Virus record (IMG/VR): IMGVR_UViG_3300029258_002750
Span: 124,001-188,000 of that record
Source of the DNA: a virus
Reading direction: 5' to 3' (one strand)
Length of the DNA stretch: 64,000 bases
In this document: in pieces, positions 6,833-62,607 of the stretch
How the letters are laid out: each line of letters opens with the position of its first letter
How positions within the stretch are numbered: position 1 is the stretch's first letter
Translations under genes and position numbers: made by a program
Notes under the pieces: model-generated
Seen by the model: only the letters and a program-made list of their open reading frames with translations
Database searches by the model: none
Told to the model about the DNA's origin: nothing

Positions 6833-7026
6833 TCGTCCTCCTCGGCCAGCTGAAGCACGAAGAACGACAGCTCGCAGGCCGGACTGTTCTTGCTCTCGGC
6901 CTCGTCGAGCACACGTCGCGCGCACGCGAACATCCGCTCGCACTTGCCGCCGGTCACCGCGTCGATTGCTCGTCGTGCCTGAGCCCGCTTGCGCGCCTGC
7001 CTGTTGTCTGGCGCGCCGTACCTCAC
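6814..7026 (-). CDS. Small basic helical protein
   Basis: 70 aa, GTG start overlapping the upstream stop. Arg-rich helix (DNRQARKRAQARRAID), four cysteines spread along the chain, no tail. Function unknown. Confidence 0.7.
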   Translation of the reverse strand: MRYGAPDNRQARKRAQARRAIDAVTGGKCERMFACARRVLDEAESKNSPACELSFFVLQLAEEDECPSTS

Positions 7027-7966: not shown

Positions 7967-7972
7967 GCTGAC

Positions 7973-7978
7973 GTTCTA
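7973..7978 (-). promoter_or_regulatory. TAGAAC box for 7966
   Basis: Minus strand CTGGG-TAGAAC-GTCAGC-ATG. The TAG ends the upstream gene 7976-8206 (…LDPG-stop). Confidence 0.73.
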
Positions 7979-8206
7979 CCCAGGATCCAACTGAGCTAGC
8001 CGGTCGATCGCCGACGCTGGCCGCAGCTCGCTCTCGGCCATCAGGTAGGGCTTCGAGCGGTTCCCCAGCGCGAGCAGGTAGATCGAGCAGAAGCGATGGC
8101 CCTGTTCGTTGACGATGGAGCCCGCGATCTCAGCCAGGTGACCGTTGAGCACCGAGTTGAAGCCGGTGCTCGCGATGATCACGACGTCGCCCTCGTGGTA
8201 CCTCAC
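7976..8206 (-). CDS. SH3-like barrel tail protein
   Basis: 76 aa, GTG start in the GTGA junction. 'YHEGDVVIIASTGF' then 'GHLAEIAGSIV' fits a small barrel. The tail ASAIDRLAQLDPG is close to consensus and ends at the promoter TAG. Confidence 0.78.
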   Translation of the reverse strand: MRYHEGDVVIIASTGFNSVLNGHLAEIAGSIVNEQGHRFCSIYLLALGNRSKPYLMAESELRPASAIDRLAQLDPG

Positions 8207-8679
8207 GGGTCGCCGGTCAGGCTCCGCAGGTCATCGGCCAGATTCCTCGCCTCCTCGGCCGTCAGCTCGAGTCGCCAATCGGCCGTCTCTCCTGCCTCGA
8301 TGACCACGCCGTTGCCCCACTCGTAGACGGCCAGGCCGTCCATCAGCTCGTGACCGTGGCCGCGCTTCGGCATTTCGGTTTCGGCTGTCGGCAGACGCAG
8401 CAACCGCGTGTCCTGCCGCCGCCGGATGCTCTCACTGGAGCCACGCCCAAGAAGCGTGAGCAATGCAAGAAGCCCGTCGTCGTCCTTATCCTCGCAGAAG
8501 ACGACGTAGCCGGAGCCGATCCCAACAGCGCCCTTCTCTCCTGGCCGCAGCCTCTCGGCCAGCTTGAAGAGACGACCGTCAGACATCACGCGCCAGAGGC
8601 GGGCGATGTCGGCTTCTTCGAGTCGCTCCTGCGCCTTCTGCAAGAAGTGCTCGGTGATCTTCACGTGTCGGACGCACAT
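8203..8679 (-). CDS. Hypothetical protein, helix-rich C-terminus
   Basis: 158 aa; ATG at 8679 chosen for its GAGGAG 8 nt upstream rather than 8712. Alpha/beta with a C-terminal ELTAEEARNLADDLRSLTGDP helix that resembles, but does not match, the tail. The N-terminus (VKITEHFLQKAQERLEEADIARL) is helical. Unknown function. Confidence 0.74.
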   Translation of the reverse strand: MCVRHVKITEHFLQKAQERLEEADIARLWRVMSDGRLFKLAERLRPGEKGAVGIGSGYVVFCEDKDDDGLLALLTLLGRGSSESIRRRQDTRLLRLPTAETEMPKRGHGHELMDGLAVYEWGNGVVIEAGETADWRLELTAEEARNLADDLRSLTGDP

Positions 8680-8683
8680 CAGC

Positions 8684-8932
8684 TCATCTCCTCGGGCGCG
8701 CAGAGCGTTCACCCAACTCGGCCAGCGCGTCGATCGCCGACAACTGGACGATCGACGGGTTGTTCTCTACCCACCGTACGGGCTCGTTGCGGCCGTCGAA
8801 CTTGATCAGGTTGTAGCGACAGTAGTCGACGCCATAGTCGAGGTGATCGACGACGGTACCGCGCACTCCTTCCGGGGCCAGGACGACGCGAGAGCCGATT
8901 GGGAGCAGTCCGTTTCCTCCAGCGCGGATCAC
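8684..8932 (-). CDS. SH3-like barrel tail protein
   Basis: 82 aa, GTG at the GTGA junction. 'LPIGSRVVLAPEGVRGTVVDHLDYG' is a clear G-RV/G-V barrel signature with an RWVENNPSIV edge strand like the 31894 protein. Tail LSAIDALAELGERS plus five basic residues. Confidence 0.78.
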   Translation of the reverse strand: MIRAGGNGLLPIGSRVVLAPEGVRGTVVDHLDYGVDYCRYNLIKFDGRNEPVRWVENNPSIVQLSAIDALAELGERSARPRR

Positions 8933-9372
8933 CCCATTCCCTCCAGCGCGGCGGTCAGCGCCGACCTCGCGCGCTCGTAGCGCTTCCGCAGCCCGTGGTC
9001 CTCGGGAAGGTCCGAGAGGTTGTCCTCGATGTCGGCCAGCTTCAGCCGGATCGCTCGCCAGCTGTCGCTCGCGACGATGTCTCCGATGAACTCCATGTAC
9101 GTGCGGTCGTCCGGCCGCGAGACGAGCTGGACCGTGTCGGCGACCTCGATACCGAACCACTCCAGCAGCTCCCGGTAGGTCGTCTCGGTGTCCTCCAGTA
9201 CGTCGTGAAGGACGGCGGCCTTCTTGAGCGTCTCGTCGGCGTACAGCACGCCCAGTCGGTTCGCAACTCGGAGCGGGTGCAGCACGTAGGGCTCGCCGCC
9301 CCACCGTGTCTGCCCGTGGTGCGCCTTGACGGCCAGGATGATCGCGTCTTCGTAGGTCATGCGTGTGCCCAT
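8929..9372 (-). CDS. HD-domain hydrolase, RelA/SpoT-hydrolase-like
   Basis: 147 aa. The order H18/H19..Q.R.GEPYVLHPLRVA, AAVLHDVLEDTETT (HD at 56-57, ED at 60-61) and a later RPDDR is the signature of the metal-dependent HD domain of (p)ppGpp hydrolases (SpoT/MESH1 type). Length fits a stand-alone hydrolase. A phage enzyme lowering (p)ppGpp or a related nucleotide is plausible; the substrate is inferred. ATG at 9372 is 2 nt after the upstream stop. Confidence 0.85.
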   Translation of the reverse strand: MGTRMTYEDAIILAVKAHHGQTRWGGEPYVLHPLRVANRLGVLYADETLKKAAVLHDVLEDTETTYRELLEWFGIEVADTVQLVSRPDDRTYMEFIGDIVASDSWRAIRLKLADIEDNLSDLPEDHGLRKRYERARSALTAALEGMG

Positions 9373-9374
9373 GA

Positions 9375-9836
9375 TCAGGCGCCGTTGTCCAGCTTGGCCA
9401 AGGCGTCTTCGAGCCGGTGGACGCGGCGACGGACGCCGGGGATCCGGTTCTCGAAGGCGTAGTTGGTCCGGTTGTGCTTGGCCTTGTAGGCGTCGTTCTT
9501 CTTCTCCAGGTCGGCCAGCTTCGCGCGCTTCGCGGCCAGCTCGCGCTCGGCGCGCTCGCGGCTCTGCTCGGTCAGGGCGATCTCGCCCTTGGAGTTGGGG
9601 AAGGTCTCGAACGCGTAGGTCAGTCGCTCGACCGGCTCACCCGTCTTGGTGAAGCGGTTGTGGCGGCCGTTGAGCAGCGACAGGACGATGTAGCCCTTGG
9701 CGCAGCCGCGCCAGTCGATGCCCGACGTGATCGAGTTCGCGGCCCAGGCGGTCCGGTGCGCGCTCAGGTGGCGCGCGGCCTTCATGACTGCCTTGTAGGC
9801 GCCGCTCGTCTTGTCGTGCTTCGTGGTCTCGTTCAT
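9375..9836 (-). CDS. Basic coiled-coil protein behind conserved leader
   Basis: 153 aa starting MNETTKHDKT, with AAGGAG 10 nt upstream; the frame extends further but has no leader there. N-terminal alpha/beta region, then a long Lys/Ala coiled coil (AERELAAKRAKLADLEKKNDAYKAKH) and a basic end. No tail. First gene after leader copy A. Confidence 0.8.
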   Translation of the reverse strand: MNETTKHDKTSGAYKAVMKAARHLSAHRTAWAANSITSGIDWRGCAKGYIVLSLLNGRHNRFTKTGEPVERLTYAFETFPNSKGEIALTEQSRERAERELAAKRAKLADLEKKNDAYKAKHNRTNYAFENRIPGVRRRVHRLEDALAKLDNGA

Positions 9837-9900
9837 CTGTGCGTTGCTCCTTCTGCTCCTCTCAACAATCTCGTTCTCGGTTCTCACAGAGTTATTGTAA
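9837..9900 (-). promoter_or_regulatory. Conserved leader, copy A
   Basis: Minus strand ACTTACAATA…TGAGAAC-N12-TGTTGAGAGG…AGAAGGAG before the ATG at 9836 (in this copy the second box begins TTGTTGAGAGG). One of five copies; the N12 spacing is invariant. Confidence 0.75.
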
Positions 9901-9924
9901 GTAGCGCTGACCGAGCGGTTTACG

Positions 9925-10197
9925 CTACACCCCTGCGGGGTGCGGCAGGGGACTGGTGTTCTCGGTCTTGACCTCGACGCCAGCGTGGCGGGCGACGTGG
10001 AGAGCGATCTCCTCCAAGGTCTTCCACTCGCGGTAGAGACGGGTGGAGTCGTCGTTGGTGGTGTTGTAGTGGCCGTAGACCTTGGCATCGGCGATCCGCT
10101 GCCACTCCATTCGGAGGCGACGGTGCGCGCGGCGCGCCTTCAGCGCGGCGTGCTCGGCGACGGCCTTCAGACTCGCGTTCGACCTCAGCTTGCTCAT
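9925..10197 (-). CDS. Small basic helical protein behind conserved leader
   Basis: 90 aa, ATG with AAAGGAG Shine-Dalgarno. Basic, helix-rich (KAVAEHAALKARRAHRRLRMEW), no cysteines, no tail. It could bind nucleic acid, judged by composition only. Independent transcription unit from copy B of the leader. Confidence 0.78.
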   Translation of the reverse strand: MSKLRSNASLKAVAEHAALKARRAHRRLRMEWQRIADAKVYGHYNTTNDDSTRLYREWKTLEEIALHVARHAGVEVKTENTSPLPHPAGV

Positions 10198-10256
10198 GGG
10201 GTTCTCCTTTCACCCCTCTCAACAACTCAAGCGTCGGTTCTCACAGGTATTCTGTA
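10198..10256 (-). promoter_or_regulatory. Conserved leader, copy B
   Basis: Minus strand ACTTACAGAATACC-TGTGAGAAC-N12-TGTTGAGAGGGG-TGAAAGGAG. Shares ACTTACA upstream with copy A. Confidence 0.75.
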
Positions 10257-10263
10257 AGTGCAG

Positions 10264-10458
10264 TCAGCCGCCGCGCTTATCACATCCCCCGGTCTCGGGC
10301 TGGTAGGGAGGGCAGCCGCCGCAGGTGCAGTCGCGCTCCTGGGTGCAGTTGTCCTCGGGCACCGGGTAGTAGATGTTCGGGTAGGTCCGGGTGTCCGGCG
10401 CGGCCAGGAGTACGAGCGACGAAAAGACGACGACAAAGACGATCACGGTGTGTGTCAT
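10264..10458 (-). CDS. Small secreted or membrane-anchored Cys-rich peptide
   Basis: 64 aa. Hydrophobic N-terminus (VIVFVVVFSSLVLLAA) is a signal peptide or anchor. The rest is a Pro/Cys-rich domain with six cysteines (CTQERDCTCGGC…GGC) that could form disulfides outside the cytoplasm. Leaderless start. Possibly an envelope-active phage peptide. Confidence 0.72.
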   Translation of the reverse strand: MTHTVIVFVVVFSSLVLLAAPDTRTYPNIYYPVPEDNCTQERDCTCGGCPPYQPETGGCDKRGG

Positions 10459-26255: not shown

Positions 26256-26588
26256 ATGAGCCTGCGCGATCGTCTGCTCGATGAAGCTGCGGCTCCCAAG
26301 GCGGACGTGGGGTGGGCGAACTCGCAGGCGAAGGCCGCGAAGAAGGCCGCGCAGTCTCGCTGGGGAGCCGGATGGAACCTGCTGTCGGTGGAGCAGCAGA
26401 AGGGCGCGGTCGCGCTGGTGCGATCGGCTGGCGGTGTGGAGGAGTCTGAACCGCACCCGGACTCACCTGCTGGGATCACGGCGCACTTTCGCCGCGAGCG
26501 GGAGATGAAGCTCAAGGTCGCGCGCGCGAAGAAGGAGCGCGCGAAGGCCGAGCGCGAGTGGAACAAGAAGAGGAAGGCGGGACGATGA
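26256..26588 (+). CDS. Small basic protein with MSLRDRLLDEA tag
   Basis: 110 aa; ATG 26256 has GGAG 7 nt upstream (GTG 26244 is in frame). MSLRDRLLDEA resembles T4 capsid-targeting leaders cleaved after L-x-E. The body is helical and basic (AKAAKKAAQSRWGAGWN; RAKKERAKAEREWNKKRKAGR). Likely internal-head or DNA-binding protein. Confidence 0.73.
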   Translation: MSLRDRLLDEAAAPKADVGWANSQAKAAKKAAQSRWGAGWNLLSVEQQKGAVALVRSAGGVEESEPHPDSPAGITAHFRREREMKLKVARAKKERAKAEREWNKKRKAGR

Positions 26589-27199
26589 GCCTGTTTGATC
26601 GCGTGACCGTTCGCCGCGTGGACCTGGGCGAGATGGACGACGGTGGCTACGGTCCGCGCAAGACCTACTCGTACGACTACGACCAGTACGGTGTCCACAA
26701 GACCACCCACTACGGCGAGCCGGAGGTTTCGCCGTCCAAGTTTCCACCGTCCAAGCCGTCCAAGCCCAAGCCCAAGAGGAAGCCCAAGAAGAAGGGCTCG
26801 CTCAGGCAGCTCAAGACCAAGGTCTGGATGCGCCCGCCGAACGGCGACTACGAGCTGGTGGCCGCGTTCAAGGCGAAGGGCGACGGGCACCTGTTCGCTG
26901 ACAGCAAGAAGAGCAGCCCGCTCGTGAGAGGCGGCGGCAAGTTCGTGGTCGAGGACAAGGACGAGGCCAGCGAGCTGACCGAGAGCTTCTACAAGCGGAC
27001 ATCCGGCTTCCAGGTGGACGACATCGACGTGAGCTTCGGTCCGTACAACATCGGCACGCCCGACCACTTCGGCCTGGTCTTCAAGCAGGGGATGAGCGAG
27101 CACTCCGTCACGCTCATGCCGATCCAGCTCAAGCCGATGGCCGATGGGCTGCGGAAGCTGGCCCGCCACATCGAGAAGGCCAAGCTGCCGAGGAAGTAG
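26585..27199 (+). CDS. Possible virion-internal protein with MSLFDRV tag
   Basis: 204 aa, ATG in the ATGA junction. N-terminal MSLFDRVTVRRVDLGEMDDG, a Pro/Lys-rich linker (residues 55-80: SKPSKPKPKRKPKKK), then an alpha/beta domain of about 120 residues with no recognised family. Sharing the tag with neighbours suggests a common destination in the capsid. Confidence 0.74.
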   Translation: MSLFDRVTVRRVDLGEMDDGGYGPRKTYSYDYDQYGVHKTTHYGEPEVSPSKFPPSKPSKPKPKRKPKKKGSLRQLKTKVWMRPPNGDYELVAAFKAKGDGHLFADSKKSSPLVRGGGKFVVEDKDEASELTESFYKRTSGFQVDDIDVSFGPYNIGTPDHFGLVFKQGMSEHSVTLMPIQLKPMADGLRKLARHIEKAKLPRK

Positions 27200-40029: not shown

Positions 40030-40902
40030 ATGGGAATCTTCGGTGCACAACTGGACGATGACGCCATCCCGCAGGCGAAGCTCTCCCCGGATGTCCAGGC
40101 GAAGCTCCCCACCTGGGAGACCAAGACCGAGAACTTCGCGATCACAACCGCCGACAACGGCAAGGGCTACATCAACACGGGTGCGACCGGGCCGGTCAAG
40201 GGCACGTGCGCTGTGGGCCTGCCAGACGGCTTCGAGGTCTCCTTCCTCCGGGTCACGGCTCAGGACTTCTGGTTCCAGCCAGCGCCGGGCGAGGAGTGCT
40301 ACCGCACCGACCTCGGTACCTTGACCGGCTGGGGCACCAACCTTGCGGTCTCGATCAACGCCCTGGTCAATCGCATCACCTGGAAGCTCGTGGTCGACGG
40401 CGCCAATCGGATGTGGGTTCCGCTCGTCGGCACCGTGAACCTGAAGGCGCAGTACCCGCTCCAGGGTCTCGACCTCAAGGACAAGACCCCAGACGGAGCG
40501 GCCTTCAACGTCAATCCGCCGACATGCGCGGCCGGGCGCTGGGAGATCCGCATCCGGGCCGAGCCATCGGCCACGCTCCTGGGATCGCTCGAGTGGGACG
40601 GCGGGTTCACCTGGACAGATGGCGCCGTCGCTGGCGTGTCTGACCTGCTCTATCTGGAGATCGACGCTTCCCTGACGCACGCGGGCGACGATGTGGTCTG
40701 GTCCGACGATCCGGCCGACGACCAGTTCCTCACCCTTTCCTACAGCACCGGCGGCGGCTTCCTCACGCTCTCCACGATCAAGCCCTACGAGGGGCCGCTG
40801 ACCATCGGCCGGGGACAGCTGCTCGACTACTGGATCGGCCAGGACGGACGGCTCTACGCGCGCAACGGCGGTGCGACCCCGTTCCCCTACGAGGCGGTCT
40901 AG
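40030..40902 (+). CDS. Probable virion protein
   Basis: 290 aa, GAGTAGGAGGACGCT before the ATG. MGIFGAQLDDDAIPQAKLSPDVQAKL start is typical of short fibre or base-plate subunits with a 'DxxIxxxKLspDVq' sequence; the rest is beta-rich with repeated Gly/Trp loops. Cotranscribed with 39385. Stop shares CTAG with the convergent gene. Confidence 0.78.
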   Translation: MGIFGAQLDDDAIPQAKLSPDVQAKLPTWETKTENFAITTADNGKGYINTGATGPVKGTCAVGLPDGFEVSFLRVTAQDFWFQPAPGEECYRTDLGTLTGWGTNLAVSINALVNRITWKLVVDGANRMWVPLVGTVNLKAQYPLQGLDLKDKTPDGAAFNVNPPTCAAGRWEIRIRAEPSATLLGSLEWDGGFTWTDGAVAGVSDLLYLEIDASLTHAGDDVVWSDDPADDQFLTLSYSTGGGFLTLSTIKPYEGPLTIGRGQLLDYWIGQDGRLYARNGGATPFPYEAV

Positions 40903-41135
40903 CTCTCCGGCAAGCTACCCAGCTGACTGACCGCGTCCTTCGGTTTGACCGGCTCCCAGTCGGCGAACAGCTCTGCGTTGGCCCAGCGCTCGTCCTGCGT
41001 CTCCGGCCCAATCCCGTGGTACATCACGTAGACGCCTAGTTCGGTCCAGGTAACCGAGTACGGTTCCTCGCTGTTCGCCGGTTTGCGGCGGGCTGCGGGT
41101 ACCTCGCTGCGTCGTAGCGCCGTGTAGAGCTGCAT
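40899..41135 (-). CDS. 'DWEP' family tail protein
   Basis: 78 aa, leaderless. SVTWTELGVYVMYHGI, then NAELFADWEPVKPKDAVSQLGSLPES: family signature plus tail. Confidence 0.78.
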   Translation of the reverse strand: MQLYTALRRSEVPAARRKPANSEEPYSVTWTELGVYVMYHGIGPETQDERWANAELFADWEPVKPKDAVSQLGSLPES

Positions 41136-41141
41136 GTCGGT

Positions 41142-41147
41142 GTTCTA
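41142..41147 (-). promoter_or_regulatory. TAGAAC box for 41135
   Basis: Minus strand GTAGGG-TAGAAC-ACCGAC-ATG. Confidence 0.72.
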
Positions 41148-41149
41148 CC

Positions 41150-41662
41150 CTACGCGGCCGAGAGGGAGAACACCTCCGCGTTCGCGTCGAGCAGGGCGCC
41201 GAGTGAGGTAACGACGTCATCGTTCGGTGCGCCCTCCGGCCACCACCGGACCACGATCGGCTCGAGGTTCCGCTCCAGCAGGGCGCGCACGTCATCCCAG
41301 TGGCACGGGTGGCGGTGCTCGTGGAACAACTCGGTCGCCCACAGCGCGGCGAGCAGGATCCTCTCCAGCTTGTCGCGGCCCGATGGTGTGATCTGCTCAC
41401 GGAGCTGCGGACCCTCGTCCTCGTAGAAGGCGAAACAGCTCGGCCGGAACTGCGGGAAGACCTGGCAGATGAGGTAGTCGATGTAGGACTGGTAGTGGTC
41501 GGGATCGTCGCCCCCGGCCACGGTTTCCACTGCCGCCTTCAGCTTGCTCCGGTCGTGGAGCGTCTTCTCGATGAGCGGAAAGATGGTCGTAGTGGTGCCG
41601 CCGTCAATCTCCAGCCCGAGCACGAGTTGGAGCTGAACGGTCTGGGTGAGTTGCAAAAGCAT
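41150..41662 (-). CDS. Helical tail-variant protein behind conserved leader
   Basis: 170 aa from MLLQLTQTVQLQLVLG with GGAGGAAGG upstream; the frame extends to 41749 but lacks a start signal there. Mixed alpha/beta with RNLEPIVVRWWPEG and DVVTSLGALLDANAEVF, a late tail variant. Function unknown. Confidence 0.75.
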   Translation of the reverse strand: MLLQLTQTVQLQLVLGLEIDGGTTTTIFPLIEKTLHDRSKLKAAVETVAGGDDPDHYQSYIDYLICQVFPQFRPSCFAFYEDEGPQLREQITPSGRDKLERILLAALWATELFHEHRHPCHWDDVRALLERNLEPIVVRWWPEGAPNDDVVTSLGALLDANAEVFSLSAA

Positions 41663-41781
41663 GGCTGCCTTCCTCCGGGTTGGTTGAGCAGCAGTTCCTT
41701 TCGCATGAGGCGTGCCGAGGAAACCCCGACCAACCTCTACTCCTCCCAACAGCTCACCGGCCCGTTCTCACGGCTGGAGTT
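41663..41781 (-). promoter_or_regulatory. Conserved leader, copy E (long form)
   Basis: Minus strand TGAGAAC-N12-TGTTGGGAGGAG, then about 70 nt more before GGAGGAAGG and ATG 41662. The N12 spacing is kept although the leader is longer. Confidence 0.68.
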
Positions 41782-42128
41782 CCGGCAGAAGATTCTTTGT
41801 GCGTTCGGAAGATCCCTTGTGCCTCGATCCGGCCTGGAGCGGATTCCGATCCGGCCAGGGCCGGATTGGGGTGAGCGGCGGGATCGTCGGCTATCCCCTG
41901 GGATAGCTCCGGGGCGCCCCGGGGCTCGCCAGAGAGCCCGACATAAACGCTTGGGGGACGAGGTTGCCCCCGACTATCGATGTAAGTCCTTTAGAATCAA
42001 CGCAGCGCTTCCAGAGCCCGCGTGTGGTTCGATCATCAGGCCGAGGGCTCGTGGCCCCTGTGCGCCGAGATCGTGTCTCCTGATCAAGGACGTGGCGCCA
42101 GGGAGCCTGCCAGGACGTCTGCCCGGGG
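41782..42128. other. Non-coding block with hairpin
   Basis: No credible gene. Contains GCTATCCC-CT-GGGATAGC (41890-41907), repeated CCTTGTGCC/TTTGTGC words and GTAAGTCCTTTAGAATC (41985), the same as GTAAGTCGTTTAGAAC at 51786 but for two positions. Ends at the TAGAAC box for 42141. Confidence 0.6.
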
Positions 42129-42134
42129 TAGAAC
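42129..42134 (+). promoter_or_regulatory. TAGAAC box for 42141
   Basis: CCGGGG-TAGAAC-GTCAGC-ATG. Confidence 0.74.
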
Positions 42135-42140
42135 GTCAGC

Positions 42141-42560
42141 ATGGCGCGTAAGAAGACTCCGGGCATCCCGCTCGCGATGACCACGAATATGTGGATCGGC
42201 TTGCGACTGATCGGCTCCCACTACCTGTGGGAGCGCGCCTGGCCCGACCCGGATCACGAGCCGAAGGAGTACGAGAAGGTCTGCGCTGTGGAGAAGCTCT
42301 ACGAGGAGCTGCCCGGCGACTGGCCAGCGACCGAGGGGCCGAATCGACGCCGCGCCTATGGCGGTCGGCGGGGGCGCGCTCTGAAGAGGCGCCAGAAGAT
42401 GCACCTTCGGCCCGAGCAGGTCGAGCCGATGCTGGACCTGCTGCGCTATGCGGTGTCGGTGCCCGGCGGCTTCATGGACAACCTGGTCTCGGGCTACCAC
42501 ATGCGGATCGCGCAGTTGGAGAAGCTCGACCTGATCACGATCATGGGCTCGCTCGCGTGA
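42141..42560 (+). CDS. Basic helical protein (paralogue of 43510)
   Basis: 139 aa, leaderless. MARKKTPGIPLAMTTNMWIGLRLIGSHYLWERAWPD at the start and a helical C-half (IAQLEKLDLITIMGSLA) mirror 43510 (MSRKKPGIPMRITGPVLLALRMAGAHHLYENEN…SIERLGAIEP). Tail degenerate. Function unknown. Confidence 0.77.
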   Translation: MARKKTPGIPLAMTTNMWIGLRLIGSHYLWERAWPDPDHEPKEYEKVCAVEKLYEELPGDWPATEGPNRRRAYGGRRGRALKRRQKMHLRPEQVEPMLDLLRYAVSVPGGFMDNLVSGYHMRIAQLEKLDLITIMGSLA

Positions 42561-42811
42561 AGCGTCGGCTTCCAGTCGGAACCCCGGTAGTGATCACCGG
42601 CGGCGGCCACGAAGGGGCACTCGGCTACATCACCTGGGACGAGGCTCTCAGCGCGCTGCCGGGCTTCGTTACGGTCCAGCCGGACGACTACAGGGGATTT
42701 GCCGTTCGAGTGCGGATCGAGGACGTGGAGCCCCGCAGCGCGGTCGATGCCCTGGCATCGGTCGTGAGGGAGGAAGAACGTGGAGCGGACGCTGGTACTG
42801 ATCAAGCCTGA
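42557..42811 (+). CDS. Tail protein
   Basis: 84 aa, GTG in the GTGA junction. KRRLPVGTPVVITGGGHEGALGYITWDEAL…TVQPDD barrel pattern; RSAVDALASVVREEERG tail. Overlaps ndk by 32 nt. Confidence 0.76.
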   Translation: MKRRLPVGTPVVITGGGHEGALGYITWDEALSALPGFVTVQPDDYRGFAVRVRIEDVEPRSAVDALASVVREEERGADAGTDQA

Positions 42812-43229
42812 CGCGGTCTCGCGCGGGCTCGTCGGAGAGATCATCTCCCGCTTCGAGCGGAAGAAGCTGAAGCTCCTCGGTCTGAAGATGCTGCGCGCCG
42901 ACGGGGAGCTTGTCGCACAGCACTATGCCGAGCACGTTGACAAGCCGTTCTACGCGGAGCTGGCCCTCTTCACGATGAGCGGGCCGATCGTGGCGATGGT
43001 TCTGGCGGGTCACCAGGCCGTTCACGTCGTGCGCACCTTGATGGGACCGACCGATGGGGTAGGCGCGCCGCTCGGAACGATCCGGGGTGACTTCGCGTCC
43101 GGCGATCCGATCCGCGAGAACCTCGTCCACGGCTCCGACTCAGCTGAGTCGGCTGCGCGGGAACTCGAGTTGTTCTTCGGCGGCGACTTCGATGTGGACG
43201 ACCATCGGGTCAGCGCTGACGGGCCGTGA
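42780..43229 (+). CDS. ndk: Nucleoside diphosphate kinase
   Basis: 149 aa, GTG start. Full NDK pattern: TLVLIKPDAVSRGLVGEI at the start, LMGPTDGVGAPLGTIRGDF near 87-105, and NLVHGSDSAESA with the phospho-accepting His at position 117. It transfers the gamma-phosphate between nucleotides, supplying dNTPs for phage replication. The C-terminus ends VSAD, encoded by the GTCAGCGCTGAC palindrome (43209-43220). Confidence 0.95.
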   Translation: MERTLVLIKPDAVSRGLVGEIISRFERKKLKLLGLKMLRADGELVAQHYAEHVDKPFYAELALFTMSGPIVAMVLAGHQAVHVVRTLMGPTDGVGAPLGTIRGDFASGDPIRENLVHGSDSAESAARELELFFGGDFDVDDHRVSADGP

Positions 43230-43513
43230 CCGAGAACGAGTTCATACGAGAGATCACGGCTCTCGGGTTCTACCCGCTCACCGGCCACGGCACGCGGCCA
43301 GCGAGCGACCTCGTCCACGATCGCCTGAGCATGATGGTCGATCTTCGCGGGCTGAGGCGGCGAGCAACCTACCGCCGTGGCAATCCCTACCTCAGCGCTC
43401 TTGCGGCAATAGCGCGTGAGATCAGCAAGCTCGATGCGATTGATCAGCTCGCCCTGCTGGGAGATACGCTGCCGACCGAGGTAGAACAGGGGTTAGAGGA
43501 ACATGATCTATGA
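43226..43513 (+). CDS. Tail protein
   Basis: 95 aa, GTG in GTGA after ndk. Mixed sequence; tail LDAIDQLALLGDTLPTEVEQGLEEHDL. The TAGAAC box for 43510 lies inside its 3' end. Confidence 0.75.
   Translation: MTENEFIREITALGFYPLTGHGTRPASDLVHDRLSMMVDLRGLRRRATYRRGNPYLSALAAIAREISKLDAIDQLALLGDTLPTEVEQGLEEHDL
43482..43487 (+). promoter_or_regulatory. TAGAAC box with leader for 43510
   Basis: CGAGG-TAGAAC then 22 nt (with GAGGAAC) before ATG 43510. Confidence 0.55.
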
Positions 43514-43860
43514 GCAGGAAGAAGCCCGGAATCCCGATGAGAATCACGGGGCCGGTCCTGTTGGCCTTGCGAATGGCTGGGGCGCATCATCTTTACGAGA
43601 ACGAGAACGATGACGAGGTCCGGTGGTGGCTGGACCGGCTGCCTCGACCGGACTGGGAAGAGGCGGCTCGTAGCTACACAGGTGTTGGCTCGAAGACTAT
43701 TCGGATTCCGGCCGCCAAGGTGGACTCGTTCATCCGCTTCTTGAAGATTGCTGCCACGAATCCGCACCAGGGGCCTGGGGTCGGTGGTGCGATCGAGAGC
43801 CGGATCGAGAAGCTCGAGTCGATGAGCAGCATCGAGCGGCTCGGTGCGATCGAGCCGTGA
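43510..43860 (+). CDS. Basic helical tail protein (paralogue of 42141)
   Basis: 116 aa. MSRKKPGIPMRITGP; helical ARSYTGVGSKTIRIPAAKVDSFIRFLKIA; SSIERLGAIEP tail at the end. Paralogue of 42141. Confidence 0.78.
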   Translation: MSRKKPGIPMRITGPVLLALRMAGAHHLYENENDDEVRWWLDRLPRPDWEEAARSYTGVGSKTIRIPAAKVDSFIRFLKIAATNPHQGPGVGGAIESRIEKLESMSSIERLGAIEP

Positions 43861-46536: not shown

Positions 46537-49500
46537 ATGAACCTGACCGAGCTTAGGGACTCCTGCATCCAGTGCGTGTGCAAGCATCTTGCCCAGGCCG
46601 AGGTGCTGATGGGCGAATCGGTCCAGGGTTACCCCGAGCACAGGTGGCTGGCGATTGGTCATATGGGCGAGGCGGCTGACGAGTGCTGCAAGGACTTCCC
46701 GAAGCTCGCGGCCGAGATCCGCAAGCACCGGACGCGTTACATGGCCGATCCCTCCTACTCCGTTCCGGTCATGGAGCTGATCGAGAAGGCGAATCGCATG
46801 GCGACCAAGACCGAGAACATCCAACCGGCGCGTACCCTCGATGAGGCCCTGGCCTTTCTGGATGAGGGGCGGCGGCGGAAGCACCGGGAGACGGAGCTAC
46901 TCACGCCCGCGCAACTGCACGCTCTGGTGAATCACGAGGCCGACCAGGACTACCTCAAGTGGGCGCACGGCTTCGCCAGCCGCTACAACGAGCGCGCCGG
47001 TCTCGATCTGCACGGGCCGGGCGGCGACGCCAAGGGCGCCGCCGAGGTTGCCGAGCAGGCCGAGGCGCTCGACGACGAGCGAGTCGACGGCCGGTTGGAC
47101 GAGGGCTCGTGGAAGGACAAGTTCTCCGAGCAGTGGCCCGGTGGTCCAGTCTCGCAGGACGAGAAGCTGTTCAAGGACCACGGCCACAAGCTCGGCGACT
47201 GGCTCCGCAAGTTCATGGACGACAACATCCCGAAGAAGGCCAAGGGGTGGCTCGCCAGCAAGAGTCAGGCGAAGTGGTACAAGAAGGGCCTGGAGGAGCT
47301 TGAGAAGGCGGCGAAGGCCGGTGGCGAGCCCCCGCCACCTCCGAAGAAGAAGAAGAAGTTCAAGCCCAGCCACTACCAGCAGGCGATCTTCGACTGGGTC
47401 GCCGATGCGTCGAAGAAGGACAAGGCCGCGCTCGTCGTGGACGCGAAGGCGGGCGCGGGAAAAAGCACCACCATGGAGCAGGCGCTCGAGTTCGTGCCGC
47501 CCGGCCAGAAGGTCGTGTTCCTGGCCTTCAACACCGACATTGCCAACGCGCTGGCCGAGCGCGTCAAGGACATGAAGAACGTCGAGGCCGCGACGATCAA
47601 CGCCTACGGGCGCGCGTCGGTGGTCAAGGCGTTCAAGAAGGGCGGCAAGCCGCCTGAGCTGGTGAAGAACAAGAACCGGCTCATCTGCGACGAGCTGGTG
47701 AAGAAGCTCGCCCCCGACAAGAAGACAGCCGAGAAGTACGAGTCGACCTACGGCTACGACATGGGCGAGGCCATCACCAAGCGCAAGATGATGGGCACGC
47801 TCGACGAGAAGGGCGAGATGCAGTTCCCGCCCTGGAAGGAGGTCTTGGCCAGGTTCGAGATCGACCTTCCGACGTCTGGGACCCAAGGCGAGTACCTCAC
47901 GCCGCAGCAGGTCACGGACACGCTGGAGGAGGCGTTCCAGCGGAGTGTCGATGACAAGGTGACGATGGAGTACGCCGACCAGGTGCTCTGGCCGGTGATG
48001 CACAACCTGCCGATCATCAGCCGGGCGACTGGGAAGAAGGCCAACCTCGACTGGGCGATGGTTGACGAGGTCCAAGACCTCTGCCCGCTCGAGCGCGAGT
48101 TCGCCAAGCGACTCGCCCCGCGCCACATGCTGGTGGGCGACCCGAACCAGTCGATCTACGCCTTCAAGGGCTCAGATCCCGACTCGATGTCGAAGATGCA
48201 GGAGCAGCTCGGCGCGGAGGAGAAGCCGCTCTCGATCTGCTATCGCTGCCCGAAGAAGGTCATCACCGAGGCGCAGACGCTCGTTCCCACGATCGAGGCG
48301 GCCCCGAACGCACCTGACGGCGACGTCCAGACCATCAAGCACGCGCAGTTCTACGAGACCCTCAAGCCGGGGGACTTCGTGCTCTGCCGCACCAACGCGC
48401 CGAACGTGGCCGCCGCGCTGGGGCTGATCGCTCAGGGCAAGAAGGCGAACGTCGTCGGCCGTGACATCGGGAAGTCCCTGAGCAGGCTGATCGAGAGGAT
48501 CGGCGGCAAGAAGGGCCACAAGGACATGCCCATCGACGAGTTCGCTGGGAAGGTGCAGAGCTGGCACGCGAAGGAGACCAAGCGGCTGACGGCCGAGAAG
48601 AAGGAGCACTTGCTCCAGGGTCTCGACGACAAGCGCGACTGCCTCCAGGCTCTCATGTCGAAGGGCGACGTGAAGGTCGCCGGTGACCTGATCAAGGTGG
48701 TCAACCAGCTGTTCGTGCAGGACCCGACACCGGCCATCAACTTCTCCTCGGTGCACAAGGCGAAGGGTCTGGAGGCGGACAACGTCTACATCCAGCGGCC
48801 CGACCTCCTGCCGCTACCGAAGGCGCTGAAGTCCGAGGATCCGGTCCAGATCCAGCAGGAAGACAACCTCAAGTACGTGGCGATCACGCGCGCGAAGAAG
48901 GCGCTGACGTGGGTCCTGCCGCCGCCGAAGGAGGGCGAGGACGAGGGGCCGACCGCTCCGCTGCCGTCACCGCCTCCGCCTCCCAAGCCCTCGCCCGCGC
49001 CTCCCCCGCCACCCGCGCCGGAGGCGAAGAAGCCCAAGGCGAAGAAGAAGGTCACCAAGAAGAAGAAGGTCACCAAGAAGAAGGTCAAGAAGAAGAAGGT
49101 CACCAAGAAGAAGGTCAAGAAGAAGGGTGTCACGAAGGCCGACATCGCCAAGCTGATGTCGATGATCCCGGACGACGCCACAATGGCCGACTGGGGCGAG
49201 TCAATTGACCCGAACGGCGCGACGCTGTTCGAGCGTGTTGTCGGGGTCCTCGATGAGGGTGCCGACTTCACCAAGGGCCGACGGAAGGTCTCCAAGAAGA
49301 AGCTGGTCGCGAAGAAGAAGGCTGCGGCCAGCGTCAAGATGCCCAAGAACGCGGCCCAGGCGGCCGAGCAGATCAAGGCCGCGCTGGCGAAGGGCGATCA
49401 GGCGACGGCGAACCGCGTCTGGGAGCTGTACGTGCACGGCGGCGGGCTGGGCGAGCCGGGGATGTGGGGCTACCAGTCGCGCAAGGCCGACATTCGCCAG

Positions 49501-51789
49501 ACCAAGCTCGCCAAGCTCGGCGTCTCGTGGAAGGGGTCTGGGCCGGTCGTCGAGGGGAAGGAGACGACTGCGGATCTGGTGCTGGCCGAGGTGAACGCGC
49601 TGACCGGAGGGAACACCATCAGCGCGACCGCGCTGGCCAGGAAGATCGGTCGAGCGCGAGGAACCGTCGTCAAGGCGGCCAGTAGGCTGGCCATGCGCGG
49701 CAAGATCGAGCGGTTGTCTGGTCTGGACGTCTACGCGCCTCTTCGAGAGGGGCGCGAGGTCAACAAGGACGGCACGATGTCCTGCGGCGTCTTCCTGCCG
49801 GTGCCGTCGAACCTGGCTCGCTACTTCCCGGACAAGAGCGAGGAGGACGACTCGGTCCCGCACTTCACGGTGCTCTACGCCGGTGATCTCTCGCCAGCTG
49901 ACTACGGGAAGCTGGTCGATGTGGTCGGCAAGGTCGCTCGGAAGCACGAGCCCTTCCTGATGCGGATGGGCGGCTACGGCGAGTTCACGAACAACAACGG
50001 CCAGACGATCCCGCACATGATCGGCAACGCCTGGCCCGAGAAGGCGAGCCTCAACGATCTGCACGCGGCTATCCGCAAGGCGGCCGAGCAGGCCGGTGTT
50101 CCGATCGCGCACACGTATGGACCAAACGAAGACAAGAAGAAGGGCTACGCCGAACAGTTCAAGGCGCACGCGACGCTGGCCTACATCAACCCGGGCGAAC
50201 CGGCCTACAAGGGCCACAGGCCCGAAGGGAGCTGGAAGGTGACCGACCTGGAGCTGTGGGGCCACGAGAAGTATCGGGTGCCGCTCGGTGCGACCGTGAC
50301 CGAGGACTACAAGGCGACCAAGAAGAAGGCGAAGAAGAAGGCGAAGAAGCCCAAGGGGTCCAAGGCATTCCTCAAGGACGTGGAGGAAGCCGCCAGCAAG
50401 CTCGCTGGCAAGCCGCTCAAGGTCGACAAGCACTCGACGACGCTTGGGAAGGGATTCGACTACTCGTTCAAGAGCGGTGGCCGGTTCAAGATCCGGCTTC
50501 GCCCGGATGGCTCGTTCACGGTCAAGCTCCAGGGACAACCGAAGCCGCACTATCGCTACCGGGGCGACGGCGCGACCCTCGCTGGCGCGCTGGCTTCGAT
50601 GAAGTCGGAGAAGACCAAGGGTAAGAAGCCTCCCGAGCACCACGTGCAGATCGCGAAGGCCGGGAAGAAGCCCAAGATGAAGCCGTGGGCAGTCGGCGAG
50701 CCTGGCCCCAAGCAGGCGAAGGTGAATGGCATCATGCTGTTCAACGACCTGGGCGTGGACCAGGAGACCTGGGACCGCTACGCGACGGCCTGCAAGGACT
50801 CGATGGACCTGCTCAAGAAGCGCGGCTTCGGCTTCATGCTGCCGAACGTGACGATGCACCTCCGCACCGGCACGGCGCTGGGAAACTACGACATGAAGAC
50901 GAAGATCGTCGAGATCTTCGTGAACACGATCGGCGCGAAGCAGACTCCGGCCAAGATCATGACCACGATGGTCCACGAGATGGGACACCACTACTACTAT
51001 CGGGAGATCCCTCGCGCGCGCAGGAAGACCTACGCCTGGTACTTCGGGCTCGCGAAGAAGCCAACCGAGAAGGGGAAGAAGCACGGCGACTTCCCCAGCT
51101 CCTACGGGGCGACGAAGCGCTACGAGGACTTCGCCGAGATCTTCGCGGCCTACATCGGCAAGGGGCACAAGATCCAGAGTCGCTACAAGCTCACGAAGGA
51201 CATCATGGACCGCTTCCGTACGTTCATGGCGCCCGACAAGCGCGTGGACCTGCGCGAGGACGAGGAGCTGTTCGGCGATGGCCTCTCGTCGGTGCTCGAG
51301 CGGCGCGAGGTGGTGACCCTGGGCGTCTGCTGCGCGCTCTGCGAGGCCGAGGGCAGCAAGACCGGAGGGGGCAGCAAATGGGTGCATCCGCTGGCGCTGC
51401 TCGCCAGGAGGCGCGCCAGGATCGATGCCAGGGACGGTCACGACGACGCGGCCGAGTATTGGCGCGGGTGGGCTGTCGGTTCGTTCCTGACGGCCAAGAA
51501 GGGCAAGGGCGACGACCCGGGCAGCAAGAGCACTCATCGTCTCGCGCTCCGCGCGCGCGACTGGGCCGAGAAGGATGACGAGGAGGGGCACAGCGACGCG
51601 GCCGAGTACTGGCGCGGGTGGGCAGCCGGGGCGTTCCTGACGGCCGAGGCTGTGGACTTCCCTCACCGCTACAGCTCGCCTGCCCAGGGCTCCTCGCGCA
51701 CGGGCGTGGGGACTGCTCCCGTCGAAGACCCGGGGGAAGCGCTGCCGCCGCCCGCGAAGCGGCGGAAGCTGAAGACGCCGCGCCCGTAA
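46537..51789 (+). CDS. Giant polyvalent protein: helicase + wHTH + 2H phosphoesterase + metallopeptidase
   Basis: 1,750 aa, ATG with CCGGAGGCTCC upstream. Residues 1-115: helical, Cys-rich head ending ALAFLDEGRRRKH (L-x-E-G, cleavage-like). About 285-800: UvrD/Rep-type superfamily-1 helicase with AKAGAGKSTT (about 303), DEVQD (about 509), VHKAKGLE (about 737) and TRAKKAL (about 783). 805-870: Pro-rich then KVTKKK-type repeats. About 897-908: LFERVVGVLDEG. 1010-1060: winged-helix. 1085-1250: 2H phosphoesterase with HFTVLYAG and HATLAYI. 1262-1275: Lys linker. Around 1480: HEMGHH zinc-peptidase site with EDFAEIF downstream. 1620-1705: two copies of GH(D/S)DAAEYWRGWAxGxFLTA. Resembles polyvalent proteins injected with phage DNA; the domain set is inferred from motifs. 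Confidence 0.88.
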   Translation: MNLTELRDSCIQCVCKHLAQAEVLMGESVQGYPEHRWLAIGHMGEAADECCKDFPKLAAEIRKHRTRYMADPSYSVPVMELIEKANRMATKTENIQPARTLDEALAFLDEGRRRKHRETELLTPAQLHALVNHEADQDYLKWAHGFASRYNERAGLDLHGPGGDAKGAAEVAEQAEALDDERVDGRLDEGSWKDKFSEQWPGGPVSQDEKLFKDHGHKLGDWLRKFMDDNIPKKAKGWLASKSQAKWYKKGLEELEKAAKAGGEPPPPPKKKKKFKPSHYQQAIFDWVADASKKDKAALVVDAKAGAGKSTTMEQALEFVPPGQKVVFLAFNTDIANALAERVKDMKNVEAATINAYGRASVVKAFKKGGKPPELVKNKNRLICDELVKKLAPDKKTAEKYESTYGYDMGEAITKRKMMGTLDEKGEMQFPPWKEVLARFEIDLPTSGTQGEYLTPQQVTDTLEEAFQRSVDDKVTMEYADQVLWPVMHNLPIISRATGKKANLDWAMVDEVQDLCPLEREFAKRLAPRHMLVGDPNQSIYAFKGSDPDSMSKMQEQLGAEEKPLSICYRCPKKVITEAQTLVPTIEAAPNAPDGDVQTIKHAQFYETLKPGDFVLCRTNAPNVAAALGLIAQGKKANVVGRDIGKSLSRLIERIGGKKGHKDMPIDEFAGKVQSWHAKETKRLTAEKKEHLLQGLDDKRDCLQALMSKGDVKVAGDLIKVVNQLFVQDPTPAINFSSVHKAKGLEADNVYIQRPDLLPLPKALKSEDPVQIQQEDNLKYVAITRAKKALTWVLPPPKEGEDEGPTAPLPSPPPPPKPSPAPPPPPAPEAKKPKAKKKVTKKKKVTKKKVKKKKVTKKKVKKKGVTKADIAKLMSMIPDDATMADWGESIDPNGATLFERVVGVLDEGADFTKGRRKVSKKKLVAKKKAAASVKMPKNAAQAAEQIKAALAKGDQATANRVWELYVHGGGLGEPGMWGYQSRKADIRQTKLAKLGVSWKGSGPVVEGKETTADLVLAEVNALTGGNTISATALARKIGRARGTVVKAASRLAMRGKIERLSGLDVYAPLREGREVNKDGTMSCGVFLPVPSNLARYFPDKSEEDDSVPHFTVLYAGDLSPADYGKLVDVVGKVARKHEPFLMRMGGYGEFTNNNGQTIPHMIGNAWPEKASLNDLHAAIRKAAEQAGVPIAHTYGPNEDKKKGYAEQFKAHATLAYINPGEPAYKGHRPEGSWKVTDLELWGHEKYRVPLGATVTEDYKATKKKAKKKAKKPKGSKAFLKDVEEAASKLAGKPLKVDKHSTTLGKGFDYSFKSGGRFKIRLRPDGSFTVKLQGQPKPHYRYRGDGATLAGALASMKSEKTKGKKPPEHHVQIAKAGKKPKMKPWAVGEPGPKQAKVNGIMLFNDLGVDQETWDRYATACKDSMDLLKKRGFGFMLPNVTMHLRTGTALGNYDMKTKIVEIFVNTIGAKQTPAKIMTTMVHEMGHHYYYREIPRARRKTYAWYFGLAKKPTEKGKKHGDFPSSYGATKRYEDFAEIFAAYIGKGHKIQSRYKLTKDIMDRFRTFMAPDKRVDLREDEELFGDGLSSVLERREVVTLGVCCALCEAEGSKTGGGSKWVHPLALLARRRARIDARDGHDDAAEYWRGWAVGSFLTAKKGKGDDPGSKSTHRLALRARDWAEKDDEEGHSDAAEYWRGWAAGAFLTAEAVDFPHRYSSPAQGSSRTGVGTAPVEDPGEALPPPAKRRKLKTPRP

Positions 51790-55775: not shown

Positions 55776-57239
55776 ATGACCACGCTGACCGCACTGCTGC
55801 TCGAGGCCCGTCGAGGCAGGATGGGCCGCTCCGGCCGCCGCCGTCCGCTCAAGACGGCTCCGCGTCACAAGACATCGGCCAGGCGCGAGAAGAAGTCCGC
55901 CAAGCCCATCAAGATCACCAAGGAGATGCTCAAGAAGGGCGTCAAGCCCGAGGGCGTCACCTGGAAGGACTGGATGCAGGCAGGCGGCAAGTTCGGTGGC
56001 GGTACAGGCAAGCCCAGGCCGAAGAAGCTCCGCGTCCCGAGCCATGTGGAGGTTGAGATCGGCCGCTGGGCGCTCGATCGGGTCTACATCAGCGACTCGA
56101 ATCTCGAGCACCACCTCCAGCGATCTGGCCGCAAGGGAGATCTCCCGCACACGGCCGCATGGGTCGGTACGGACAAGGAGCGGATGAAGCTCCTGCTCAA
56201 GTTAGGCGTTCGTCACTACCGCAAGAAGGGCCGGAAGTCGAAGGAGAAGGAGAAGGCGAAGTCGGTCTCGAAGTCGATGGGGAAGGCGCTCTCGGCCGAC
56301 CCGTTCGCGGGAGCCAGCTGGGGAGACGAGGACAAACTCCAGCAGACCGGCTGGTGGGGCGTGGGCGGCGGCAAGAAGGCATCGAAGCGGCTCCCGAAGC
56401 CGAAGCCGAAGCTCACGCCCGAGCAGCAGAAGCTCCGAGATCTGGTGAGCGGCTTCAAGAAGAAGATGTCGCACATCCCGCGTACGGCGGCCGGTGGCAT
56501 CGTCTTCAAGACGTTCGAGGGTCCCGATCTCTGGGATCTGCCGGTGCTGGCCTGCCAGGTCGCGCCCAAGTACGGCACCTACTGGGTGTTCCCGAAGGGT
56601 GGTCTCGACATTGGCGAGAGCCTGCACAAGGGGGCGGCTCGCGAGGTCAAGGAGGAGAGCGGTGTTCGTGCGAAGGTCGCGAACAACCAGGCGCACGTTA
56701 CCAAGAGCAAGTTCGGTGACCGTGGCAAGTACGACCTTCCGCTCATCCTGAAGCTGATGAAGGAGCAGTACCCCAAGGAGGCCAAGTTCATCGAGTCCCA
56801 GGCTGAGGAGATCAAGGGGATGTTCTTCTCCTGGGAGAATGAGACCCACTACTACGTGATGAAGCACACCGGCGGCTCGCCGGGGTCTGGCACCGATCAC
56901 GAGATGGCCCGCTCCGAGTGGGTATCGCTGCGCGACGCGTTCAAGCGCAGCTATCGGATGGAGGAGGTCGTCACGAAGCTCTTCCCGGTGATCAGGCGGA
57001 TGTGGAAGCCGACCGGCGAGGCGAAGAAGCCGCTGCCGATCTCGGCGCTGCGGACGCCCAAGCCGAAGACGATGCCGGTCGGCAAGCCATCGGGCAAACC
57101 GATCGGCCCGAGCCGGATCGTGATTACACCGGCCACGAAGCAGTCGCAGAAGCACACGCCGCTGAAGCAGTGGCCGCCGCCGAAGAAGCAGACCAGCTAC
57201 AAGAGCTACCCGATCTGGAAGCTCTACGGCGGCAGCTAG
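55776..57239 (+). CDS. Nudix hydrolase with capsid-targeting-like N-terminus
   Basis: 487 aa. MTTLTALLLEARRG begins like a T4 capsid-targeting leader (L-x-E-A). Residues 20-210 are Lys/Arg-rich. A Nudix domain follows, with the box GGLDIGESLHKGAAREVKEESGV at about 274-296 split as GX5EX7REVxEExGV. Later residues are Pro/Lys-rich. Likely a head-packaged nucleotide or RNA-cap hydrolase. Stop shares CTAG with the convergent gene. Confidence 0.88.
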   Translation: MTTLTALLLEARRGRMGRSGRRRPLKTAPRHKTSARREKKSAKPIKITKEMLKKGVKPEGVTWKDWMQAGGKFGGGTGKPRPKKLRVPSHVEVEIGRWALDRVYISDSNLEHHLQRSGRKGDLPHTAAWVGTDKERMKLLLKLGVRHYRKKGRKSKEKEKAKSVSKSMGKALSADPFAGASWGDEDKLQQTGWWGVGGGKKASKRLPKPKPKLTPEQQKLRDLVSGFKKKMSHIPRTAAGGIVFKTFEGPDLWDLPVLACQVAPKYGTYWVFPKGGLDIGESLHKGAAREVKEESGVRAKVANNQAHVTKSKFGDRGKYDLPLILKLMKEQYPKEAKFIESQAEEIKGMFFSWENETHYYVMKHTGGSPGSGTDHEMARSEWVSLRDAFKRSYRMEEVVTKLFPVIRRMWKPTGEAKKPLPISALRTPKPKTMPVGKPSGKPIGPSRIVITPATKQSQKHTPLKQWPPPKKQTSYKSYPIWKLYGGS

Positions 57240-61694: not shown

Positions 61695-62056
61695 TGGGGG
61701 AGCCGCTCGACGAGACGATGGCCCGGCGGCCAGAGATCAGGAAGCGGATGGTCTACATTCGCCGCAAGGCGATGGGGCCGCCGCCGCCGGAGACGCCCGA
61801 GGCCGAGCTGGTCGACGAGATGATCCGCGAGGCCGCGATCGACTTCGATCTCTCGCCGGTCCTCTCAGGCGACAAGCTCCTGGCCCAGCGAGTGGCCGAT
61901 GACTTCGTGAGGGACCTCAGGAAGAAGGTCAGCGCCGACACGGAGATATCGGATGAGGATCTCGAGAAACGGCTTGAGATGCTGTGGCCGTGGTTCTACC
62001 GCTCGCTGAACATCTTCCGCAACCGGCTCAAGACCGCAATTGGAGGACAGTCGTGA
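61694..62056 (+). CDS. Helical hypothetical protein
   Basis: 120 aa, ATG in the TGATG junction. Acidic helix (EAELVDEMIREAAIDFDLSP), then LWPWFYRSLNIFRNRLK. Position just before virion-type genes suggests a head-assembly role, but this is inference. Confidence 0.72.
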   Translation: MGEPLDETMARRPEIRKRMVYIRRKAMGPPPPETPEAELVDEMIREAAIDFDLSPVLSGDKLLAQRVADDFVRDLRKKVSADTEISDEDLEKRLEMLWPWFYRSLNIFRNRLKTAIGGQS

Positions 62057-62607
62057 GTTTCTACGATCGCATCGTCGAAGGCGGCGGCTACGACGACCCG
62101 CCCGACCTTTCCGAGTTCCAGCGCCAGGTGCTCAGGGCTGCGCGGGCGACGCCCAGCGTGAGTGGCACGGGCCGGTTTATCGGCGGAAAGGCGGCGGGTT
62201 CAGTCATCAAGACCATGCGCAAGCAGGGCGTCACCGTGAAGGCGGCGGAGGGCAAGAAGAAGGTAGAGAAGGCGCTCGCCCAGCTCCACAAGCGCGGCCT
62301 AGTCTGGACCCGGCGCGAGGGTACCTGGTCCGGCAAGGCAGGTGGCGAGGTCTTCCACACGCGCGTCTCCACGCCATCCGCAACCTCGATCAAGAGGGGC
62401 GGCTACGTCGACCTGTTGCTCAAGAAGCTGAAGAAGGCTGGCATCAAGACGGCGACGACGTGCCAGCTCGACTACAGCAAGACCCTGAACCGGCGCGAGG
62501 GGATCGGTATGTCCATCGCCGATGTCGTGAAGCTCGCCGCACTTCCGTCCTTCAAGCTCCCGACGAAGGACGAAGCCCGCGCCCACAGGCACGCGAAGGG
62601 GAAGTAG
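62053..62607 (+). CDS. Basic protein with MSFYDRIVEGG tag
   Basis: 184 aa, GTG in the GTGA junction. VSFYDRIVEGGGYDDPP resembles the tag of 24804/26585 and the cleavage-like I-x-E-G. Two basic, winged-helix-like modules follow (GKAAGSVIKTMRKQGVTVKAAEGKKKVEKALAQLHKRGLVWTRREGTW). Likely DNA-binding virion component. Confidence 0.76.
   Translation: MSFYDRIVEGGGYDDPPDLSEFQRQVLRAARATPSVSGTGRFIGGKAAGSVIKTMRKQGVTVKAAEGKKKVEKALAQLHKRGLVWTRREGTWSGKAGGEVFHTRVSTPSATSIKRGGYVDLLLKKLKKAGIKTATTCQLDYSKTLNRREGIGMSIADVVKLAALPSFKLPTKDEARAHRHAKGK

Follow-up and report, generated by a model that had tools for sequence, protein, structure and literature searches.

Capsid-targeting sequences (CTSs) of bacteriophage T4 are N-terminal, and the T4 CTS reads MKTYQEFIAEA. 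Residues 4 and 7 of the T4 CTS serve in targeting and residues 8 and 10 in processing, and the protease gp21 cuts after L/I-x-E (PMC9026906). Head proteins of SPN3US carry N-terminal propeptides of >100 residues (PMC5694885). In polyvalent proteins, a single polypeptide of a phage or plasmid combines several disparate enzymatic domains, and UvrD-like helicases were recorded in only a few of those from actinomycete plasmids (Iyer et al., PMC5512222). From its sequence and those of its relatives, we put at roughly 55% the probability that P0001, the protein described here, is a polyvalent protein packaged inside the head of a T4-type jumbo phage; the prohead protease would cut it at L-x-E ahead of infection.

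The P0001 gene

The window analyzed (64,000 bases) comprised positions 124001 to 188000 of a 275,101-base virus record (G000). The P0001 open reading frame (ORF) had by far the highest coding score in the window and a GGAGG upstream of its ATG start, and an ortholog (L003) was found as a single frame of 1,654 amino acids in an independent, diverged assembly (G001), together with an identical copy (L004). P0001 and the ortholog were 86% identical (84 to 90% across conserved segments), with dN/dS values of 0.13 to 0.21 for the N-terminal, helicase, 2H, and zincin segments. Residues 901 to 1750 were repeated at 100% identity in a third record (G003/L002), and a search of G000 for further copies of P0001 segments found none. 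P0001 is a real gene, and the single ORF encoding 1,750 amino acids that had been drawn at this position by a first-pass annotation made from the sequence alone agrees with the coordinates, start codon, ribosome-binding sequence, coding score, and intact ortholog. In a related phage (G004), two P0001 modules are separate genes, as would be expected if the single frame were an assembly or frameshift artifact joining neighboring genes. This explanation is highly improbable and was rejected, with the fusion intact in both G000 and the divergent G001 (the latter with its identical copy), purifying selection on either side of the junction, and the second half repeated in G003. Features of the locus are listed in Table 1.

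Table 1. Features of P0001 and of other genes in the window (a slash in a motif marks a putative cut)
Feature	Position in window	Strand	Evidence or remark
P0001, fusion polyprotein, 1,750 aa, ~193 kDa, pI 9.5	46537..51789	+	ORF, coding score, computed mass and pI
N-terminal domain, residues 1-92, uncharacterised, CxxC..KH..GYPxHRW..GHMxEAxxECCKD	46537..46812	+	separate gene in G004, 63% identity
Candidate prohead-protease site FLDE/G (E110)	46855..46869	+	FLDE/A in ortholog
UvrD-type SF1 helicase, residues 276-795	47362..48921	+	Pfam, phrog_1967, motifs read from sequence
Linker, Pro-rich then Lys-rich, residues 796-866	48922..49134	+	sequence; dS 0.71, dN 0.18
Internal capsid-targeting-like leader TLFERVVGVLDE then /G, residues 896-907	49222..49257	+	would mark fusion point
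Probable winged HTH, residues 1011-1068	49567..49740	+	weak Pfam matches; missing in L003 ortholog
LxE site LREG (E1071), wHTH/2H junction	49741..49752	+	not in ortholog, segment replaced there
2H phosphoesterase, residues 1076-1250	49762..50286	+	Pfam, Foldseek; HxT motifs at H1109 and H1211
Small conserved domain, fold unassigned, residues ~1290-1370	50404..50646	+	conserved versus L003
Zincin metallopeptidase, residues 1386-1600	50692..51336	+	H1480-E-x-x-H1484 (HEMGH), E1530-D-F-A-E
LxE site LCEA (E1603), edge of swapped C-terminal module	51337..51348	+	conserved in ortholog
Two AAEYWRGWA repeats, residues 1612-1700	51370..51636	+	DUF5661 instead in L003
C-terminal RRKLKT element of P0001	51760..51777	+	common to other proteins of same phage
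Neighboring Nudix protein, start MTTLTALLLE/ARRGR..RRRPLKT	55776..57239	+	LLE leader and RRPLKT
Basic protein, leader MSLRDRLLDE/A	26256..26585	+	
Basic protein, leader MSLFDRV..DLGE	26585..27196	+	
Basic protein, leader VSFYDRIVE/G	62053..62604	+	

Domains of P0001 and their exchange among relatives

The first-pass annotation had placed four activities in the chain (helicase, winged HTH [wHTH], 2H phosphoesterase, and zinc peptidase) with Pro/Lys-rich linkers, L-x-E-G sites near residues 109 and 907, and paired AAEYWRGWA repeats at the end, and it had taken the combination for an unusual polyvalent protein. Three of the four domains, namely, the helicase, 2H, and zincin domains, were recovered by profile or fold searches, the wHTH being probable only; the linkers and the repeats were read in P0001, as were the L-x-E sites (E110 and E907, with E189 and E1071 in addition). 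The polyvalent reading also held, and the set proved unusual with respect to the helicase.

The helicase segment matched both Pfam domains of UvrD-type SF1 enzymes (UvrD-helicase, E = 2e-15; UvrD_C, E = 2e-12) and phrog_1967 (E = 1.5e-79) and contained Walker A (K309) and Walker B motifs, DE at residues 510 and 511, and TRA in motif VI. It was the sole phrog_1967-type helicase found in G000, and homologous helicases were stand-alone proteins of ~500 amino acids in every relative inspected. Judged by these homologs and by its rarity in the survey of Iyer et al. (PMC5512222), the helicase is an unusual member of the P0001 set. That no other such helicase was found in G000 and that the homologs stand alone favor the main rival explanation, in which P0001 is a replication or repair helicase with accessory domains that never leaves the infected cell, its leader and LxE sites being remnants of the gene fusion. 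Such a helicase could act in intracellular replication, and in Virus Rctr197k the homologous helicase gene is far from the polyvalent gene. The effector half of P0001 belongs with the 2H, zincin, and DUF5661 proteins typical of the polyvalent class, which argues against this rival, and we regard it as rather unlikely.

In a segment search, residues 1011 to 1068 were matched by five HTH models, among them MarR (E = 0.002), all below the Pfam cut-off, and the AF2 model of this stretch was of low confidence, so that a winged HTH here is only probable. The 2H segment, with its two HxT motifs, matched Pfam 2_5_RNA_ligase2 (E = 1.8e-9, segment search), and the best Foldseek matches were all 2H enzymes (such as LigT, drCPDase, and Usb1). 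The zincin segment matched Pfam Peptidase_Mx1 under the curated cut-off (E = 6e-4) and contained HExxH with a downstream Glu ligand; HE-GH and EDFAE were invariant across 12 sequences. Foldseek placed leukotriene A4 hydrolase-type zinc aminopeptidases first (probability up to 0.98, with a best E value of only 1.5e-3), and viral matches included a putative peptidase of phage PaBG. The structure searches thus supported the fold of both the 2H and the zincin segments, so that more than one domain is confirmed. Pfam searches with residues 1 to 92 and residues ~1290 to 1370 returned no match, and no match was found among cultured phages with the N-terminal region or the C-terminal repeats or among plasmids with the effector half.

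An intact zincin (HExxH and EDFAE, dN/dS 0.18) in the same chain fits a classic polyvalent protein of the kind proposed by Iyer et al., whose own peptidase releases the remaining domains either ahead of packaging or once inside the host; these authors inferred autoprocessing for P1 DdrB (PMC5512222). Against such self-processing, the pattern of candidate cut sites fits a gp21-type protease, which is encoded in the genome, and the zincin precedes the 2H domain in G004, so that its position is not fixed; we consider self-processing improbable.

The relatives retrieved depended on the query: whole or two-row alignments returned only close relatives and one distant helicase, and alignments that included divergent 2H and zincin copies returned distant relatives. 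Among the relatives, a polyvalent repertoire (2H, zincin, and DUF5661) appeared in shuffled form. The L003 ortholog was missing the wHTH segment and had DUF5661 where P0001 has the YWRGWA repeats; the rest of G000 contained no DUF5661. In G004 (L058), the N-terminal domain had its own gene, ending in RRPLKT; next came a gene with the start MSLYDRVLCEG, and after it a gene for a 1,305-amino-acid protein, which starts VSLFARLTED, contains zincin followed by 2H (66% identical to the P0001 2H), and has the C terminus SLFDRVIVGEQAPEGLKRRSLKS. L041 contained several zincin copies and Nudix. The 2,039-amino-acid protein APU88970.1 of Virus Rctr197k contained, above Pfam cut-offs, two InPase stretches, DUF7178, and a 2H module 40% identical to that of P0001, with weaker ParB and DUF5661 matches. 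The Rctr197k kin of the 2H domain, with InPase and DUF7178, and the DUF5661 of the ortholog agree with polyvalent proteins, and the helicase, 2H, and zincin domains of P0001 are disparate enzymes in one polypeptide. P0001 is therefore well supported, on sequence grounds, as a polyvalent protein; domain shuffling in relatives and stand-alone helicases elsewhere suggest a polyvalent-type chimera with the helicase as an unusual partner. Two large proteins were noted separately: a 1,345-amino-acid phage protein combining a 2H domain with a eukaryote-type topoisomerase IB (L059:10001-14038) and a 2,123-amino-acid protein of G000 without a Pfam match (L008:3202-9573; G000 63202-69573), possibly another multidomain effector.

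L-x-E sites, leaders, and the head module

P0001 contained eight LxE[A/G] sites compared to 2.4 in shuffles (P = 0.0035), ranking first when 74 large proteins from three phages were compared; a best P of 0.005 would arise by chance fairly often in a set of this size, so that the enrichment supports the packaging model and is no proof of it. The next few proteins in the ranking included the L003 ortholog, the G004 counterpart, and scaffold proteins. Six of the eight sites lay outside folded domains, whose borders were drawn by hand and partly after the sites were seen. At four sites (E110, E189, E907, and E1603), LxE was kept in the ortholog. This enrichment argues against P0001 remaining in the cell as a helicase, as does the retention of the LxE of the internal leader in the ortholog despite a swapped flanking module.

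G000 encodes a T4-type head module, with a portal protein (phrog_213, E = 1.6e-46), a protease (phrog_207, E = 1.9e-23), and a major head protein (phrog_138, E = 2e-51). The P0001 gene was on the same strand as the portal gene, ~12 kb upstream and outside the head cluster, a position that tells against the packaging model. An attempt to derive the cleavage site from the N terminus of the major head protein failed: an LAE near this terminus was not conserved in G004, so that the L-x-E specificity of the G000 protease is only putative. The gp21-like prohead protease gene (L011:4916-7747; G000 191916-194747) was split by an apparent intein (CLGLGTPVLMADG..HN), also found in G001 and absent from G004, and apparent inteins were seen in the G004 portal protein (5703-10454, L075) and the G000 DNA polymerase A gene (L007:799-3639; 40799-43639); Pfam Intein_splicing matched at 1.4e-7, just under the cut-off.

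About ten genes of G000 started with [M/V]SL(F/Y)(D/E)R(V/I/L)..LxE, most of their products being strongly basic, and many genes in three related phages opened with [M/V]SL(F/Y)(D/E/A)R(V/I/L) followed by LxE (such as MSLYDRVLTE/A, MSLYERVLGE/A, and VSLYERVLGE/A). At the DNA level, the pattern [A/G]TG-S-L-(F/Y)-(D/E)-R-(V/I/L) had 17 occurrences across four related records, those within any one record all lying on the same strand; the reversed pattern occurred 0 times in the same four records and the forward pattern 0 times in nine less related phages. Leader-bearing proteins were basic (median pI of 10.1 versus 5.9, P = 1e-5), as is expected of proteins packed with DNA, except for one small acidic member in G004. 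Aligned without gaps, the leader matched the T4 CTS at Y4, V7, L8, and E10, and we infer that the leader family is a capsid-targeting sequence. Leader-bearing genes with unassigned function were located at L009:12715-13665, L009:13662 onward, and L008:19474 onward (G000 92715, 93662, and 79474), with the leaders VSLFDRVLGEE, VSLYDRVLAEE, and VSLYERVLGEA. A zeta-toxin/AAA_33-type P-loop kinase (L012:1921-2751; G000 208921-209751) had the leader VSLFERVV..LLHEG and a C-terminal KRRKLKTR and is a candidate for packaging in the head.

In P0001, the leader motif was internal, at residues 896 to 907. A CTS has its aromatic (residue 4) and hydrophobic (residue 7) positions and its L/I-x-E at the N terminus, which is also where the motif lies in about ten other G000 genes and in the G004 counterpart. 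The missing leader at the true N terminus of P0001 is the main weakness of the packaging model, and it counts in favor of P0001 acting as a helicase within the cell. The score of the internal leader was reached by 3 of 200 shuffles, which is only moderately significant. Homology gives a stronger argument for a fusion at this point than the leader score: the L003 sequence that follows the internal leader (LTEDLSAEDQRLADEIV..EMWQEVR) was 63% identical to the N terminus of a stand-alone G004 protein, from its start codon, and the separate N-terminal-domain gene of G004 lay just upstream of the effector gene(s). Given the homology between L003 and G004 and the embedded leader, the simplest history would be fusion of a helicase gene ahead of a gene for a leader-bearing head protein.

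A second element, R[R/K]xLKT, was found in seven called genes of G000, at ten places in all compared to 0.2 to 0.4 expected (window positions 51760-51777, 55839, and 61194; G000 positions 22501, 62788, 72153, 80548, 103583, 104725, and 209728). It sits near N or C termini, including those of P0001 (which ends KRRKLKTPRP), the neighboring Nudix protein, and the leader-bearing zeta-toxin-like kinase, and it sometimes directly precedes LxE (RRPLKTLAEA and RRPLKTLDEA). The leader and tag region of the Nudix protein was conserved in three phages. At the DNA level, RRPLKT occurred 7 times in G000 versus 0 in controls and 2 times in G004 versus 2 in controls; because the G004 count is at control level, the tag is treated as suggestive, and R[R/K]xLKT is possibly a second targeting tag.

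Proposed processing and comparison with known systems

Under the packaging model, P0001 would have arisen when a stand-alone UvrD-type helicase was fused ahead of a head-targeted effector whose leader survives at residues 896 to 907. The chain would be recruited to the prohead core, and the gp21-like protease would then cut it after L-x-E at some of E110, E189, E907, E1071, and E1603, giving an N-terminal domain and two fragments, one with the helicase (~88 kDa) and one with 2H and zincin (at most ~77 kDa). A cut at E110 would leave residues 1 to 110 as a long, SPN3US-like propeptide (PMC5694885). The fragments would enter the cell together with the DNA, where the helicase could act on the incoming genome, the 2H domain could remove 2',3'-cyclic phosphate ends or nucleotide alarm signals, and the zincin could cut a host protein or complete processing. 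The first-pass annotation had suggested that several enzymes are released after entry; cleavage in the prohead seems likelier, since L-x-E fits the gp21-type protease of the phage itself and site 907 lies within a leader.

A wider picture is possible and is put forward tentatively, in which an unclassified jumbo-phage lineage places a head address leader (MSLYDRVLxE/A), perhaps with the RRPLKT tag, on a dozen or more mostly basic proteins, and fusion of leader-bearing genes has produced a helicase-delivering polyprotein split by the prohead protease. If this is true, the leader would allow the head cargo of jumbo phages to be listed from sequence, with no culturing needed, and the joint delivery of helicase and DNA would point to a need for the entering genome to be unwound or remodeled as the first event of infection. 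Multienzyme polyproteins would then be built by fusing head-targeted genes and split by the maturation protease; eukaryotic RNA virus polyproteins are also cut apart, by another route.

Like polyvalent proteins (PMC5512222), P0001 is a very large phage protein with disparate enzymes including zincin and 2H, and its relatives contain InPase, DUF5661, and Nudix; unlike them, it joins 2H and zincin to a UvrD-type SF1 helicase and has an embedded T4-type leader and LxE sites at module borders. APU88970.1 of Rctr197k is likewise a large multidomain protein with a related 2H module, encoded near a predicted structural gene, but it has InPase, ParB-like, and DUF7178 domains and no helicase or zincin, and the UvrD helicase of Rctr197k is a separate gene ~136 kb away. 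The phrog_1967 helicases of MiCath, Brevundimonas phages, and Bacteroides phage SJC03 have a homologous core (~30% identity) but are stand-alone proteins of ~500 amino acids where the gene was inspected. The ejection proteins of phiKZ and SPN3US also belong to jumbo-phage heads, where a gp21-like protease cuts them after Glu, and they have long propeptides, as residues 1 to 110 of P0001 would be (PMC5694885); the G000 head module, in contrast, is T4-like (phrog_138/207/213), with a putative L/I-x-E rather than S/A-x-E pattern. With T4 internal head proteins and Alt, the phage shares a leader family (residue 4 aromatic, residue 7 hydrophobic, LxE at 8 to 10), basic cargo, and a gp21-like protease, portal, and head protein (PMC9026906), whereas the leader of P0001 is internal and its cargo is a 193-kDa multienzyme chain, where T4 has small proteins or a lone ADP-ribosyltransferase.
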